Assembly: GCA_025057155.1 (NCBI GenBank)
Contig: JANWYD010000026.1
Span: 1-43,409 of the forward strand
DNA length: 43,409 bases
Direction: 5' to 3'
Source: Chloroflexaceae bacterium
GTDB taxonomy: Bacteria > Chloroflexota > Chloroflexia > Chloroflexales > Chloroflexaceae
In this document: piece after piece, positions 28,698 through 43,330 of the stretch
Position numbering within the stretch: the first letter of the stretch is position 1
Layout: each line of letters starts with the position of its first letter
Position numbers and translations under genes: made by a program
The notes under the pieces: generated by a model
Told to the model about the DNA's origin: nothing
Database searches by the model: none
What the model saw: the letters and a program-made list of their open reading frames with translations, nothing else

Positions 28698-30161
28698 TCA
28701 CAGCAGCGGCGACATAAGCCGGGTCAGATTCTCGAAGAGCCGCTGGTGGAGCGGGCGCCGGCGCCACTCCTCGAGGGTCAGCTCCCGCGAGCGGGCGGCG
28801 TAGTCGGCCTCGGCCCGCCGCAGATCGGCCACCACGCGGGGATCGTAGCAGAGCAGCGTCACTTCCAGGTTCAATTCAAAAGAGCGCATGTCCATGTTGC
28901 TTGACCCGATCACCGCGATGTCATCATCAACGCTGATCGTCTTGGTGTGTAGCAGAATGGGGGAATAGTAGAGACGGATTTTCACGCCTGCGCGCAGCAG
29001 TTCCTCATAGTAAGAACGTTGCGCGTAGGCCACGAGAAACTGATCGCGGGCCTCGGAGTTGAACATCGTCACCTCGACCCCGCGCAGCGCGGCGGAGATC
29101 ACCGCCATCATCAGGGCCTCATCGGGCACGAAGTACGGGTTGCAGATCACCAGTTTCTCGCGCGCGGCATGGATCAGATCCACGAACAGGCGCAGATTGT
29201 TTTCGCGCTCGAAGCCCGAACCGCTCGGCAGCACCTGACACAGCGACGAGCCGCCAGGGGTAAAGGTCATCGCGCCGAGGGGGTCATCGGGATCGGCGAG
29301 CCGCTGCCCGGTCTCGGAGTACCAGTCGGTGCGGAACACGGCGTCCAGGGCGTCAACAGCGGGGCCGCGCACACGGGCCACCAACTCGTCGTAGTAGAGG
29401 TTGTCGCGACGGTGGTAGGCGCGGTGGATAAGGTTGAGCGAGCCGGTGTAAGCGATTTCGCCGTCAATCACCACGATCTTGCGGTGGTTGCGCAGATCGG
29501 GCCGGTTGACATCATCGAGGCGGTAGAGGGGCAGCATCGGGCAGGCGTTGATGCCGGCGGCCCGCATGCGCCGCAGGGTGGCGCGGTAGGGAGGGTACTT
29601 GCGGCTGCCCACCGGGTCGTAGAGCGCCCGCACCGCAACGCCGCGGGCGACAGCCCGCTCCATGGCCCGAAAACACTCCTCGGTGGCCGCATCGGCGATC
29701 AGAATGTAAAACTGCACGTGGACGAAGCTCCGGGCGGCGTCAATATCCGCCGCGAGGCGCGCCAGAATGGCGTCATAGTCGGTGAGGATCTCCACCCCGT
29801 TCTCCGCCGTGGCCGGCAAGGCCCCCAGGGCGGCGCTCAGATCCACGAAGGGCCGGTAACGCGCCGGGATGTCCGGCGCCAGCAGCGGGCGCGTCTCTGG
29901 CGCGGCCTGCGCCTGGGCGACGAGCTGCCTGATGTAGCCATTGATCTCCTTCTGGATCGCCAGGCGCCTGCTGGAAAGCTTCGGCGAACCGAGCAACAGA
30001 AAGAGGATCAGGCCCGGCCAGGGAAAGGCAAAGATCAATAGCATCCAGGCCGTCGCCGAAGAGGGCTTGCGGTTCACCGGCACGATGAACAGCATTACGA
30101 AGGGGATGAGCCAGGTAAGGATCGTCAGGGCCAGGGCGATCCAGGTCCACAGCGGGGTCAT
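28698..30161 (-). CDS. cls: Cardiolipin synthase, phospholipase D type
   Basis: 487 residues. Two N-terminal membrane helices (WTWIALALTILTWLIPFVML, then WMLLIFAFPWPGLILFLLLG), then two HKD motifs: HRKIVVIDGEIAYTGSLN near residue 225 and HTKTISVDDDIAVIGSSNMD near residue 402. Both have the H-x-K-x4-D and the following GS(S)N that define the ClsA-type active site. It condenses two phosphatidylglycerols (or PG and a second phospholipid) to cardiolipin. Length is normal. The upstream mutL gene lies 19 nt beyond its start, on the same strand, so the two may be co-transcribed. Confidence 0.93.
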   Translation of the reverse strand: MTPLWTWIALALTILTWLIPFVMLFIVPVNRKPSSATAWMLLIFAFPWPGLILFLLLGSPKLSSRRLAIQKEINGYIRQLVAQAQAAPETRPLLAPDIPARYRPFVDLSAALGALPATAENGVEILTDYDAILARLAADIDAARSFVHVQFYILIADAATEECFRAMERAVARGVAVRALYDPVGSRKYPPYRATLRRMRAAGINACPMLPLYRLDDVNRPDLRNHRKIVVIDGEIAYTGSLNLIHRAYHRRDNLYYDELVARVRGPAVDALDAVFRTDWYSETGQRLADPDDPLGAMTFTPGGSSLCQVLPSGSGFERENNLRLFVDLIHAAREKLVICNPYFVPDEALMMAVISAALRGVEVTMFNSEARDQFLVAYAQRSYYEELLRAGVKIRLYYSPILLHTKTISVDDDIAVIGSSNMDMRSFELNLEVTLLCYDPRVVADLRRAEADYAARSRELTLEEWRRRPLHQRLFENLTRLMSPLL

Positions 30162-38442: not shown

Positions 38443-39201
38443 CTAGTTGGGCCGCGCTTGCCCTTCGCGCCCCCCTTCCTCGGCGGGAGGCGAGCCGGCT
38501 GCGCCGGCGCCGGCCTCCTCGCCCTGGCGGCGGGCATCGGCGATCAGCGCGCGGGTGGCGCGGGTGGCCCAGAGCGCCAGGAAGGCCGGGGTGATCAGCG
38601 CCAGCGGCGCCACCAGGATCAGACTGATCAGCAGCAGCGCCCCCATCAGCAGGAGGGTCACGAAGGTGTAAATGGGGCGGCCAAGCGCCAGCAGCAGGGC
38701 ATTGCGCCCGATGAGCCGCAGGGAGGGGACCTCCTGGAGCATAAGCAACGGGAAGGCGTAGAGCGTCAGGCCCAGCCAGAACAACGACAGGTAGAGCCAC
38801 AGGCCAAGGAGGAAGCCGCCCAGGAGGGAGTTCATCCGCAGGTAGAAGCCAAGATTGAAGAGGATCAGCAGCGCCCCGCCGGCAGCGATGAGGGTGATCA
38901 GCAGCGCGGGCTGGAGATAGCGGCGCATCCCGGCGAAGAAATCGGCGACCTTCGTGGCGCGGCCATCGGTCACCCGGCAGGCGACGTAGAACAGCCCGGC
39001 GTTGGCCAGGCCGACGGGCAGAACTCCCAGCGCCCCGGCCAGCAACGCCGCCAGCGGCGCTCCCTGCGCCAGGGCGCTCAGGGCGAGCGCCCACAGCGGC
39101 AGGCTCAGCGTCGCCCAGATCAGGTTGCCGACCAGCAGCAGGAACACCTCGTCGAAGAGGTCGCGCAGAGCCGCGCCGAGCGCCTGAAACGGATTACGCA
39201 T
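38443..39201 (-). CDS. Multi-pass membrane protein, YesL/DUF624-like
   Basis: 252 residues if started at the ATG at 39201 ([20 protein letters not shown]); an upstream in-frame start at 39222 would add 7. Five or six membrane helices are readable ([20 protein letters not shown] and [20 protein letters not shown] among them). The early LGNLIW-like motif and later [20 protein letters not shown] are reminiscent of YesL/DUF624 proteins, with moderate confidence. The C-terminus is a basic/acidic, Ala-rich tail. The gene shares a short divergent promoter region with the PSD-like gene; an extended -10 TGGTATAAT is at 39237-39245 on this strand. Confidence 0.6.
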
Positions 39202-39236
39202 GTCATCGTGCCGGGCGAGCAATTATCACTTTTGTC

Positions 39237-39245
39237 ATTATACCA
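39237..39245 (-). promoter_or_regulatory. Extended -10 promoter of the YesL-like gene
   Basis: TGGTATAAT read on the minus strand, about 36 nt before the start codon; weak -35. Confidence 0.5.
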
Positions 39246-39265
39246 GAAGCGCCCGCCCTGCCCGG

Positions 39266-39294
39266 TTGCGCTGCGCCAGCGCCCATGCTACAAT
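39266..39294 (+). promoter_or_regulatory. Promoter of the PSD-like/RibD-like pair
   Basis: -35 TTGCGC (39266-39271), 17 nt, extended -10 TGCTACAAT (39286-39294). Divergent from the promoter at 39237. Confidence 0.6.
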
Positions 39295-39399
39295 CCGGAA
39301 GAATTCACTGTTTCGGGTCCCTCCGCGCCAGCGCACCGGGCCCCTGCGAGGCGACCGGTTCGTCGCGGCAGGTCCTGCATCTGCGTATCCTGCCCGCCT

Positions 39400-40074
39400 A
39401 TGGAAGAGCAGACCGTCTCCGGCGATCGCCATTCACTCATCCCCGGGCTCGACCCCGAGGCCACCCCCCTCCTGGGCCTGGGGATCGGCCTCACCGGCCT
39501 GGCCCTTGGCCTGCGCCCGCGCCTGGCCCCGCTGCCGCTGGCGCTGACCGCGCTGGCTGCGGCCCTCTACCGCGACCCGGAGCGGACGACCCCTAACGAA
39601 CCGGGAACGCTGTTTGCCCACGCCGACGGCGTGCTCGCGCGCGTGGAGGAGGTGTACGAGCACCGTTTCATCCACTCGGACTGCCTGCGCCTCGCCGTGG
39701 CGATCGCCCCGTTCGACGTGCCGGTTTGCCGCAGCCCGCTCGCGGGAACAGTGCGACTGGTGGAGCATATCAGCGGCGAGCACCGGCCCGCGAGCGACCC
39801 TGAGGCGGGCGACCGCAACACCCGCGCCTACATCGGACTCGACACCGAATGGGGGCCAATCCTGGTAGCGCTGGTGGCCGGCCCGGTAGGGCGGCGCATT
39901 CTATGCCGGGTGCAGGCAGGCGAGCGGGTCGAAGCCGGCGCGCGCCTGGGCACGGTACGCTTCGGCGCGCGCGCCGATCTCTACGTGCAGCGCGACGCGC
40001 TGCACCTGACGCTGTCGCCCGGGCAGCGCCTGGTCGCTGGAGTGACGCGCATCGGCGAGACGGCCCCACTGTAA
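39400..40074 (+). CDS. Phosphatidylserine-decarboxylase-like protein lacking catalytic residues
   Basis: 224 residues. The family layout is clear: an N-terminal membrane pair (LLGLGIGLTGLALGLRPRLA, then PLPLALTALAAALYRDPERT), the RDPERTTP motif, ADGVLARVEEV, and the C-terminal AGERVEAGARLGTVRFGARA. Active short-type PSDs have DVHxxR and end with RFGSRxD, where the serine becomes the pyruvoyl group. Here residue 108 is proline (FDVPVCRSP; codon CCG) in place of the histidine, and residue 190 is alanine (RFGARAD; codon GCG) in place of the serine. Neither decarboxylation nor self-cleavage is expected. It overlaps the next gene by one base (TAATG). Confidence 0.75.
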   Translation: MEEQTVSGDRHSLIPGLDPEATPLLGLGIGLTGLALGLRPRLAPLPLALTALAAALYRDPERTTPNEPGTLFAHADGVLARVEEVYEHRFIHSDCLRLAVAIAPFDVPVCRSPLAGTVRLVEHISGEHRPASDPEAGDRNTRAYIGLDTEWGPILVALVAGPVGRRILCRVQAGERVEAGARLGTVRFGARADLYVQRDALHLTLSPGQRLVAGVTRIGETAPL

Positions 40075-40961
40075 TGACCCTCGACCTTCACGGCCCCGGC
40101 GCGCCGTACACCCTGCTCTTCGACGATGACGACGCCTCTGGCCCCGGTCTGCCGGAGGCGTTTCGGGCCATCTACGGCGGCGACTGGCGCCTGCTCGACC
40201 CCGCCGACGAGCGCCCGTACATCTACACCAACTTCGTCGTCTCGCACGACGGGCGCATCTCCTTCGACGAGCCGGGGCAATCCAGCGGCGCGCCGGTGAG
40301 CCTCAACGCGCCCCACGACACCTGGCTCATGGCCCTGCTACGCTCCCGCGCCGACGCCATCCTCACCGGGGCCGGCACCCTGCGCGCCGCCCTTCGCCAC
40401 CGCTGGACGCACTGGGCGCCCTTTCCCGCCGACCGCGGGGCCTTCGACGCCCTGCGCGCCATCGAGGGCCGCGCGCCGCTGCCGCTCTTCGTAGTCATCA
40501 CCGGCAGCGGCGACCTGCCCGCCAGCGCGGCGGCATTGCGCGTGCCGGGCCAGCAGACGCTCATCGCCACCACCGCGGCCGGAGCGGAACGCGCCCGCGC
40601 CGTCCTGGACGGCCTGCCCCACCTCAGCTACCACATCAGCCCCGGCGAGCGGGTGGACCTGGCCGGCCTGGCTCGCCACCTGCGGCAGCAGGGCGTGCGG
40701 ACGCTGCTGAGCGAAGGGGGCGCCCACATCTACGGCGCATTAATCGCCGCCGGGCTGATAGACGAAGTCTTCACCACCAGCAGCCCGGTGATCATCGGCA
40801 ACCGGGCGGCCCCGGCCCGCGCGCGCCCCTCGCTGGTGGAGGGCGTAGCCTTCGCCCCCGGAGCCGCGCCGCGCCTGCGCCTGGTAAGCCTGCGGCGCCA
40901 CGGCGACTACCTGTTCCAGCGGGCGCGCCTCAGCGCCGTTCCGCCCCCGCCAGGGAAGTGA
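40074..40961 (+). CDS. RibD C-terminal-type (dihydrofolate-reductase-like) reductase
   Basis: 295 residues. NFVVSHDGRISFDEPGQSSG, then RSRADAILTGAGTLRAALRH, the DLPASAAALRVPG-type segment, and TLLSEGGAHIYGALIAAGLI (usually LLxEGGxxLxxxLxxxxLvDE), followed by DEVFTTSSPVIIG. The deaminase half of RibD is absent. Such stand-alone proteins reduce pyrimidine or pterin-like substrates with NADPH; the substrate here is unknown. The start ATG overlaps the stop of the PSD-like gene, so the two are probably translated together. Confidence 0.85.
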   Translation: MTLDLHGPGAPYTLLFDDDDASGPGLPEAFRAIYGGDWRLLDPADERPYIYTNFVVSHDGRISFDEPGQSSGAPVSLNAPHDTWLMALLRSRADAILTGAGTLRAALRHRWTHWAPFPADRGAFDALRAIEGRAPLPLFVVITGSGDLPASAAALRVPGQQTLIATTAAGAERARAVLDGLPHLSYHISPGERVDLAGLARHLRQQGVRTLLSEGGAHIYGALIAAGLIDEVFTTSSPVIIGNRAAPARARPSLVEGVAFAPGAAPRLRLVSLRRHGDYLFQRARLSAVPPPPGK

Positions 40962-41293
40962 ACCATGACTACCCGGCGGCGTCGCGCGCCGAGGACGCAG
41001 CGCATTACATCCGAACCCCTACCGCGCCGCAGACCCTCGCGCAGGCCAGCGCCACTATGGTACAGGCGCGTGGTATAATACGGGCCATCAGAAGCGAGAT
41101 GGCCGGCCCTCAGCTACAGGGCGACACCCGGGCGATGGAGAAGCGCGGATGCCGCGCGACCGCATAAGGATGCGCCAGAAGCGCGTCGGACACCCGCGGC
41201 GCACCTTAAAAAGCGGGCCAGATTGGCGGCAAAACCGGCACACCGCGCAACAGGCCCGAAATAGCGCATAGCAACGCCCTCGCGACGCGCGAT
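40962..41293. other. Region between the reductase gene and the CRISPR array, candidate leader
   Basis: 332 nt with no gene. A short GTG/ATG frame at 40958 is not convincing. The right part (about 41080-41293) would be the CRISPR leader if transcription runs left to right. It is less A/T-rich than typical leaders. Confidence 0.5.
41071..41079 (+). promoter_or_regulatory. Extended -10, candidate promoter of the CRISPR array
   Basis: TGGTATAAT, exact extended -10, about 215 nt before the first repeat and pointing into the array. No -35 recognised. Confidence 0.5.
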
Positions 41294-43330
41294 GTCCGAA
41301 TAACCTCAATCCCCGCGAGGGGATTAAAACACGAAGAACGTCCACGAACCATGCGGGAATTCCGCTTTCGCCTGTCCGAATAACCTCAATCCCCGCGAGG
41401 GGATTAAAACCCTCTTCCTCTTCTCCCTCGTCCTCTCGTTTCTTCGCGTCCGAATAACCTCAATCCCCGCGAGGGGATTAAAACTCATGATTGCTATCAT
41501 TTACTACACAATCAAGTTCGTGTCCGAATAACCTCAATCCCCGCGAGGGGATTAAAACCGTATCCTTCCGTGCCTACAAGGTGCGGCCCATACGCATCTC
41601 GTGTCCGAATAACCTCAATCCCCGCGAGGGGATTAAAACTGGAACAACGGCGCCGTATTGCGTGGAGGAATTATGTCAGCGTCCGAATAACCTCAATCCC
41701 CGCGAGGGGATTAAAACTAATTACCCAGCAGCATCATTCTGGCGCATTGCGAGATGAGTCCGAATAACCTCAATCCCCGCGAGGGGATTAAAACCGCCGA
41801 GCGAGACGTAGCCGTCTCGCTCGGCGCGCTAGAGTCCGAATAACCTCAATCCCCGCGAGGGGATTAAAACAGAAAATACGGCGAGCCGGCGCCAAGGGGG
41901 AACGACATTGTCCGAATAACCTCAATCCCCGCGAGGGGATTAAAACTTGGACGCAACCAACCCGGCGCGCGCACATTACAACTGCGTCCGAATAACCTCA
42001 ATCCCCGCGAGGGGATTAAAACGCTCGCCGACGTTCAGCGACACCAACGGCCAGATCACCTGGTCCGAATAACCTCAATCCCCGCGAGGGGATTAAAACA
42101 TCCAGGTGCCGCACCATTGGGATAATAATAAATCCGTGTCCGAATAACCTCAATCCCCGCGAGGGGATTAAAACAATATGGGAAAGAGACATTACATTCC
42201 TTGCATGTATCAAGTCCGAATAACCTCAATCCCCGCGAGGGGATTAAAACCCGGTACAGGTATCGGCGTTGGCGTCGGGATATAAAAGTCCGAATAACCT
42301 CAATCCCCGCGAGGGGATTAAAACGTACCTCTCGAACTCGAACGACACTTCGCCATTCTCATTGTCCGAATAACCTCAATCCCCGCGAGGGGATTAAAAC
42401 GTATTGAGGGTTCTCCCCGGAGCCTAGCCTGTCCTCATATGCGTCCGAATAACCTCAATCCCCGCGAGGGGATTAAAACTCACGATCCGGTATCGGGCGG
42501 GGATTGCCGATGGGAGCTGGGTCCGAATAACCTCAATCCCCGCGAGGGGATTAAAACGCGGCGAGAAGGTTGACCGGCAGCACAACCTCCACCACGGTCC
42601 GAATAACCTCAATCCCCGCGAGGGGATTAAAACTTGTCCGTCTTATATGGGATAGAAAGCAGAATGTCAATCACGTCCGAATAACCTCAATCCCCGCGAG
42701 GGGATTAAAACGACCCTTTCAAGATACGTCAACAGGGCGGTTCGAACTGAGTCCGAATAACCTCAATCCCCGCGAGGGGATTAAAACAGTTTTTCCAAAC
42801 AATCCTCGCACAGCACGACGTCCTCGGTCCGAATAACCTCAATCCCCGCGAGGGGATTAAAACGCATACGTCCTAGCGTCATCATCACCATTGCTAATAT
42901 GTCCGAATAACCTCAATCCCCGCGAGGGGATTAAAACTCGTCGGAAAATTGGTAATGACCCCGTCAACCAATCCCTCTCGGTCCGAATAACCTCAATCCC
43001 CGCGAGGGGATTAAAACCCATCGCGGCCCCGCTGCACCTCACGCCGGATATAGGCGACCACGTCCGAATAACCTCAATCCCCGCGAGGGGATTAAAACCA
43101 ACATTCCAACACTCGTATCTGCGTGATTTTCTTAGCCAGCAAAGTCCGAATAACCTCAATCCCCGCGAGGGGATTAAAACCGGGATCTGTTTCGCCGTCA
43201 GCTGGAACGGCAGGCCGTCCGAATAACCTCAATCCCCGCGAGGGGATTAAAACGAAGATTGCGGGCATTGGAAATCAAACCGGATTACCGTATGTCCGAA
43301 TAACCTCAATCCCCGCGAGGGGATTAAAAC
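41294..43330 (+). CRISPR. CRISPR array, 27 repeats of 37 bp and 26 spacers
   Basis: Every repeat begins GTCCGAATAACCTC and ends GAGGGGATTAAAAC; all 27 copies read the same, the first at 41294-41330 and the last at 43294-43330. The repeat contains a 7-bp stem AATCCCC/GGGGATT closed by a GCGA loop. Its last eight bases ATTAAAAC resemble the 5' handle (ATTGAAAC-like) of crRNAs in type I and III systems, so transcription is most likely plus, leader on the left. Spacers are 36 to 45 nt, a broad range. There is no degenerate terminal repeat on either side, and no cas gene in the window, so the subtype cannot be told. Spacer 7 (41795-41833) is palindromic. Apparent reading frames through the array are translations of the repeat. 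Confidence 0.98.

Follow-up and report, generated by a model that had tools for sequence, protein, structure and literature searches.

The locus

The window, by which we mean the whole stretch of 43,409 nucleotides analysed here, carries on its forward strand an open reading frame that runs uninterrupted from an ATG at 39400 to a TAA at 40074 and encodes 224 amino acids. The initial annotation described it as an intact gene for a phosphatidylserine decarboxylase (PSD) relative that has kept the fold, with proline at 108 and alanine at 190 in place of the catalytic histidine and the pyruvoyl serine, and the results below bear out each of these points. Copies with this histidine and serine are referred to here as canonical, and the group without the histidine to which the window protein belongs as derived. 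The features are as follows.

39400..40074, +: derived PSD-family protein, 224 amino acids, with Pro108 and Ala190 replacing the catalytic His and the pyruvoyl Ser
39460..39567, +: two hydrophobic N-terminal helices (codons 21-56; helices 21-38 and 44-56), presumed membrane anchor, from AlphaFold2 secondary structure and hydropathy
39625..39627, +: D76 codon, counterpart of E. coli Asp90 (maturation triad), kept in 41/41 derived members
39655..39681, +: YEHRFIHSD, codons 86-94, fixed motif of the derived group (Y86, H88, R89, H92 and D94 in 41/41, E87 in 40/41)
39721..39723, +: P108 codon, position of the catalytic His (E. coli His144); P32, A7 and S2 among 41 derived members, H in 16/16 canonical Chloroflexales copies
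39850..39852, +: W151 codon, Trp in 40/41 derived and 0/16 canonical copies
39967..39969, +: A190 codon, position of the pyruvoyl Ser (E. coli Ser254); A18, S12, G6, T3 and C1 among the 40 derived members read, S in 16/16 canonical copies
39991..39996, +: R198-D199 codons; R in 39/40 and D in 40/40 derived members read, R in 3/16 and D in 4/16 canonical copies
40074..40961, +: RibD_C-like reductase, 295 amino acids (PF01872, 88.1 bits), overlapping the PSD stop by one base

The reductase frame begins inside the PSD stop codon (TAATG), which agrees with the one-base overlap annotated initially. The promoter that had also been attributed to the gene was not recovered: a sigma-70 consensus scan of 39000-41100, which leaves other promoter types outside its scope, returned no promoter-like and no terminator-like site.

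Family membership and predicted fold

The window protein belongs to the PSD family by its Pfam score (PF02666, 87.5 bits, cut-off 22), and all 48 rows of our alignment A2 match the same model. It also hits 11 NCBIfam models for PSD or archaetidylserine decarboxylase, each below its own cut-off, with a top score of 132.9 bits against 183; for the archaetidylserine decarboxylase model TIGR00164 the score was 108.8 against the 230 bits of the equivalog cut-off. A second, active PSD encoded elsewhere in the same genome (5.1 Mb in 189 contigs, with a completeness rating of 100%), a possibility that the initial annotation proposed to check, was rejected, as the PF02666 search gave a single match.

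A sequence search against solved structures returned E. coli PSD alone, at E-values of 1.2 and 1.4. The AlphaFold2 model is confident (pLDDT 91.2, pTM 0.86) and its best Foldseek match is likewise E. coli PSD (7cnx, 3.3e-6, TM 0.53). With VIA-align, E. coli PSD (Z 13.2, rmsd 4.3 Å over 152 residues) tied with EIIA(Glc) (Z 13.1, rmsd 2.3 Å over 121 residues), and M23 peptidase domains reached Z values of up to about 10 against the window barrel. The window protein has no Pfam match to either of the last two groups, and a shared fold would not in itself indicate function. With short-type bacterial PSDs (PF02666; NCBIfam PRK05305 models; E. coli structures 7cnx and 6l06) the protein shares the family, the predicted fold, the counterpart of Asp90 and the N-terminal helices, which presumably anchor it in the membrane by analogy with E. 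coli PSD (PMC7952604). It differs from them in lacking the catalytic histidine, the pyruvoyl serine and a genomic phosphatidylserine synthase (PssA), in scoring under every NCBIfam PSD cut-off and in possessing a new fixed motif.

Loss of the catalytic residues

According to Cho et al. (2021, PMC7952604), D90/D142-H144-S254 drive self-cleavage of E. coli PSD. Ser254 is needed for this step, the S254A protein remaining uncleaved, while His144, there called absolutely conserved, is needed for decarboxylation, and its mutants are cleaved slowly and make no phosphatidylethanolamine (PE). Motif alignment by eye, starting from the E. coli residue names, gives D76 as the counterpart of Asp90, D106 of Asp142, A101 of Tyr137, P108 of His144 and A190 of Ser254, and the alignment with the 16 canonical Chloroflexales copies agrees with the numbering of the two replaced positions. 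A substitute serine for self-cleavage, which would have spoken against the initial annotation, is not found in the neighbouring sequence: in the window protein the four residues on either side of 190 include neither Ser nor Thr nor Cys, and T185 comes closest. A sequencing or assembly error at 108 and 190 was rejected, the same DVPVCR and RFGAR stretches being found in four genus-mates.

When 61 Chloroflexales genomes, some of them incomplete drafts, were searched with the window protein, a homologue was found in 55, of which 41 carry the derived type (34 in family f1 and seven in f4) and 14 the canonical type only (six in f2 and eight in f3). We take f1 to be Chloroflexaceae, f4 Roseiflexaceae and f3 Herpetosiphonaceae, partly from record titles; by the same token G031 is presumably Chloroflexus aurantiacus, G042 Roseiflexus sp. 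RS-1 and G053 Herpetosiphon aurantiacus. Two genomes, G015 and G026, carry both types, which brings the canonical copies to 16. His108 is present in none of the 41 derived members and in all 16 canonical copies; Ser190 is kept in 12 of 40 derived members, one further copy being cut off at a contig end, as against 16/16. In other families of the Chloroflexota, 19 of 20 outer loci have both His and Ser, the exception being L089, with Gln and Thr.

In a tree of the 48 rows, a branch with support 99/97 sets apart the 27 derived rows, which are placed near the canonical Chloroflexales copies. When the tree is built without columns 108 and 190, the serine label takes five changes, two of them forced by well-supported branches (L089 was excluded from this count). 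For the 28 pairs that can be formed from eight derived genes, dN/dS ranges from 0.04 to 0.25, a rough estimate for those pairs in which dS exceeds 1. The derived type is thus a group and no local oddity; among 400 Chloroflexota genomes drawn evenly, 58 matched the derived profile. Since 5 of the 46 f1 and f4 genomes, one of them rated 100% complete, are without the gene, it is not indispensable. No canonical PSD was found at the E-value used in 39 of the 41 derived genomes, including that of the window. We found no description of the derived group in listings of the open-access literature.

A reaction-centre match is present in 39 of the 41 derived genomes (exceptions G006 and G045). A tie to phototrophy was nevertheless rejected: G010, G023, G035, G039 and G058, from the same two families, have a reaction-centre match and no homologue, and G040 combines a reaction centre with a canonical PSD.

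Absence of phosphatidylserine synthase

With the PssA model TIGR00473, 13 of the 61 genomes exceed the cut-off and three more reach 83-90 bits. These 16 coincide exactly with the set of genomes that have a His+Ser PSD, and in every one of them the match adjoins the PSD; at the outer-family loci it does so in 15/20. The remaining 45 genomes gave no PssA with this model, the top score being 43.4 bits. In the genome of the window, the best scores for a PS synthase were 38.4 bits with TIGR00473 (cut-off 107) and 21.1 bits with NF006946 (cut-off 314), a search that a PssA unlike both models would escape. Three of the four weak TIGR00473 hits in this genome were read; they are fitted best, though in no case over the cut-off, by the models for PgsA, archaetidylinositol/PI-phosphate synthase and ClsA/PgsA. 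An E. coli-type PssA was rejected as another source of phosphatidylserine (PS), its model being over cut-off in none of the 61 genomes; a weak hit in the window (28830-28952) falls within an ORF on the reverse strand (28698-30161) of the PLD type, which is cardiolipin-synthase-like and has PLDc domains.

That the gene encodes a maintained pseudoenzyme, as the initial annotation had it, is well supported by a phylogenetically coherent group of 41 genomes without the histidine, by purifying selection and by the lack of a second PSD-family gene and of a recognizable PssA in the window's own genome.

A newly fixed motif

The initial annotation also suggested a new role. Such a role is likely in view of a motif that it had not noticed, YEHR[FY]xH[ST]D at positions 86-94, which is fixed in 41/41 derived members down to about 45% identity, and equally so in those that keep Ser190. 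In the canonical Chloroflexales copies, Y86, H88, H92, D94 and W151 are each found in 0/16, R89 being already present in 16/16 and E87 in 12/16. The outer loci have the motif in 0/20 and isolated residues only (H92 in two; Y86, D94 and W151 in one each; D199 in six).

Scanning one genome for each of 84,980 species with the pattern YEHR[FY][LVI]H[TS]D, which variants of the motif would escape, returned 47 stretches, of which 42 are relatives. All but one of these bear titles of Chloroflexota groups (Chloroflexus, Oscillochloris, Chloroploca, Viridilinea, Roseiflexus, Kouleothrix or unnamed bins); the remaining one is titled Gracilibacteria and presumably corresponds to G020:C714, which falls in f1. 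At position 108 the 42 relatives have P32, A7 and S3 and no His, and at 190 they have A19, S12, G6, T3 and C1, one not being covered. Exceptions to the other fixed residues are Cys (L155) and Phe (L140) at 151 and Glu (L142) at 199.

Losses and gains in the fold

The AlphaFold2 model of the canonical copy from G053 (pLDDT 91.1, pTM 0.86) has the same order of main strands as that of the window protein. In the AlphaFold2 topology, the hairpin 77-87/93-101 bears D76 and residues 101-108 at its open end and has residues 88-92 as its tip; residue 151 is the tip of the hairpin 142-149/152-159; and residue 190 lies between strands 182-186 and 191-197, which puts 198-199 at the other end.

Gains and losses were compared between 27 derived and 20 canonical rows, L089 being omitted, and a position was counted as lost if conserved in at least 95% of canonical and at most 60% of derived rows. 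With loops assigned from strand topology to an active-site end and a far end, classes that were drawn after the conserved positions had been seen, seven of the nine lost positions are at the active-site end (101, 102, 108, 131, 164, 186 and 190) and two elsewhere (205 and 216). Fifteen barrel positions are fixed in derived and not in canonical rows; nine are at the far end (86, 87, 88, 89, 92, 94, 151, 198 and 199), one is at the active-site end (187) and five are elsewhere (65, 72, 146, 153 and 194). Mean conservation rose by 0.78 bits at the far end and by 0.61 at the remaining positions and fell by 0.14 at the active-site end; 4 of 155 circular shifts attained the difference seen between far and active-site ends. 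Because the remaining positions gain as well, the contrast comes mostly from the active-site end, whose relaxation gives the stronger signal; the far end stands out more by the identity of its fixed residues than by average conservation. Strand topology would thus put a new fixed patch and the old active site at opposite ends of the fold.

Neighbouring genes

A close homologue of the reductase lies directly downstream of the derived gene in 25/25 f1 genomes that have one. Nine f1 and seven f4 derived genomes (16/41), some of which are incomplete drafts, have no close homologue, and the RibD-like reductase is accordingly a frequent (25/41) and not an obligatory neighbour. In five f2 genomes a homologue is found apart from the His+Ser PSD, in four of them on another contig of a draft. 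The homologue beside the derived gene in G006 (C376:4007-4855, reverse strand) has an in-frame TAG.

Other neighbours were counted by tblastn at 28 f1 loci, which do not include that of the window, six f4 loci and the 20 outer loci. A gene for an ECF sigma factor lies downstream in 16 of the 28 f1 genomes, 5 of the 12 negative loci having at most 1.5 kb of downstream sequence, and 13 of these 16 also have an anti-sigma-like gene. The link is absent from the six f4 loci examined, where the derived gene follows ffh and rimM (6/6). In the window's own genome, the sigma orthologue (91% identical) is on contig C4 and not at the locus. The derived gene has no fixed partner across the genomes examined.

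Directly 3' of the reductase, in the spot that ECF sigma and anti-sigma genes occupy in the sister genomes G001, G002 and G004, the window has a CRISPR array (41294-43330), in which a repeat of about 37 nt occurs 27 times at a spacing of 73-82 nt. On the other side of the PSD gene, a divergently transcribed ORF (38443-39222, reverse strand) has no Pfam or NCBIfam match and is kept beside the derived gene in several f1 genomes.

Discussion

The explanation that we favour, and consider somewhat better than an even bet, is that a retired phosphatidylserine decarboxylase has been reused as a membrane-anchored protein with a new, putative working site at the far end of its barrel. On the way to the Chloroflexaceae and Roseiflexaceae copies, the catalytic histidine would have been lost and PS synthase as well. 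The pyruvoyl serine, no longer needed, would then have been replaced by drift, with Ala, Gly, Thr or Cys taking its place along several branches; this order suggests itself because the histidine is missing throughout the derived group while the serine varies. The PSD fold and the hydrophobic N-terminal helices would have been retained, and the opposite end of the barrel would have gained a fixed patch made up of Y86, H88, H92, D94, W151 and R198-D199, E87 and R89 having already been common. The window protein would accordingly sit on the membrane as one uncleaved chain and work through the new site, whose most likely task, in the upkeep of the membrane or envelope, would be to bind some ligand, metal or partner protein. 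What the sequences show directly is the absence of both catalytic residues and of a recognizable PssA, purifying selection, a single group on the tree and the fixed motif; the order of the losses, the far-end position of the patch, placement on the membrane, lack of cleavage and the function of the site are what we infer. Cleavage may occur in the 12 of 40 derived members that have kept the serine, by analogy with the slow cleavage of E. coli His144 mutants described in PMC7952604.

It is tempting to take this a step further, to a catalytic or metal-binding site formed by H88, H92 and D94 with Y86, R89, W151 and D199, opposite the abandoned pyruvoyl site, which would turn the protein into a novel membrane enzyme or membrane receptor of the Chloroflexaceae and Roseiflexaceae. 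We advance this version tentatively and think it rather improbable as it stands; if true, the working site would have migrated within a single fold, out of the funnel on the membrane side and over to the far tip.

The new residues may instead be a structural compensation, a His-Asp-Tyr network that stabilizes the uncleaved chain or the dimer of an otherwise passive fold. The position of the motif at a hairpin tip and next to loops, and its fixation in the very group that lost processing, would fit such a network; its equal fixation in members that keep Ser190 does not, and charged or polar residues at hairpin tips are seldom so strictly conserved for stability alone. We therefore regard compensation as unlikely. 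A slightly lower probability attaches to a non-catalytic sensor that binds a lipid, such as phosphatidylglycerol (PG), through the old substrate funnel and reports the state of the membrane, with the ECF sigma/anti-sigma pair as a possible recipient. Lipid binding, which the initial annotation had put forward, is plausible, and in its passive form it has to be taken seriously as a rival by analogy, because a malarial PSD that has lost cleavage (S308A) retains its binding to PS and PG and binds neither PE nor phosphatidylcholine (PMC10172927). The ECF sigma gene found downstream in 16 of 28 f1 genomes would suit a sensor, and a tie between a PSD-family gene and envelope stress has a precedent in E. 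coli, where psd-mscM is under the control of sigma-E and CpxR (PMC8138132); in the derived group such a tie would be partial. Against a sensor of this kind, the positions that have relaxed are those of the funnel and the active-site end, and the sigma link is absent at the six f4 loci and broken in the window's own genome.

Further alternatives carry little weight. The initial annotation proposed a scaffold for the co-transcribed RibD-like reductase, and both the one-base overlap and the adjacency in every f1 genome with a close reductase homologue invite this reading; we now hold it to be very improbable, given the derived genomes without a close homologue, the f2 homologues lying away from the canonical PSD and the in-frame TAG in the adjacent copy of G006. 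Even less is to be expected of a decarboxylase that operates through another residue or cofactor. The retention of D76 in 41/41 members and of Ser190 in a few lineages could be read in that direction; yet the His144 mutants in the E. coli work (PMC7952604) make no PE, there is no alternative serine near 190 and no PssA would supply PS. Just as improbable is a decaying relic, which might account for the 5 of 46 f1 and f4 genomes without the gene and is made unlikely by the low dN/dS, by the lack of an internal stop in any listed match and by the motif fixed in 41/41 members.

Reuse of a retired decarboxylase invites comparison with the trypanosome prozyme, a catalytically dead paralogue of AdoMetDC that activates the active paralogue in the same cell, as summarized in PMC5201418; in both cases a relative of a pyruvoyl decarboxylase is retained after catalysis has been lost. 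Unlike the prozyme, the derived protein would have no active paralogue to regulate in the 39 of 41 derived genomes without a canonical PSD, the window's genome with its single PF02666 match among them.

The derived group looks like a well-ordered natural record of the retirement and reuse of an enzyme: PssA and the catalytic histidine are missing from the same genomes, the pyruvoyl serine is variable and a new fixed site is found in the same protein. In metabolic models of Chloroflexus, Roseiflexus and their relatives, the PF02666 matches of this group are easily misread as PE-making enzymes. The YEHR[FY]xH[ST]D motif can be used to label these genes in a re-annotation and lends itself directly to mutagenesis.

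Retirement may perhaps have happened more than once. L089 (4824-5582, reverse strand, genome G316) is another divergent member of the PSD family, which falls outside the derived group and has Gln at the histidine and Thr at the serine position, no YEHR motif and no PssA match nearby. It adjoins the derived rows in the 48-row tree with weak support (86/51) and on a very long branch, and may represent an independent case. Finally, the canonical His+Ser PSDs at L048, L049 and L050 (genomes G037, G026 and G015) lie in longer open frames of 442-499 amino acids with a convergent PssA match, and G015 and G026, with both PSD types in one genome, constitute a natural pair for comparison.
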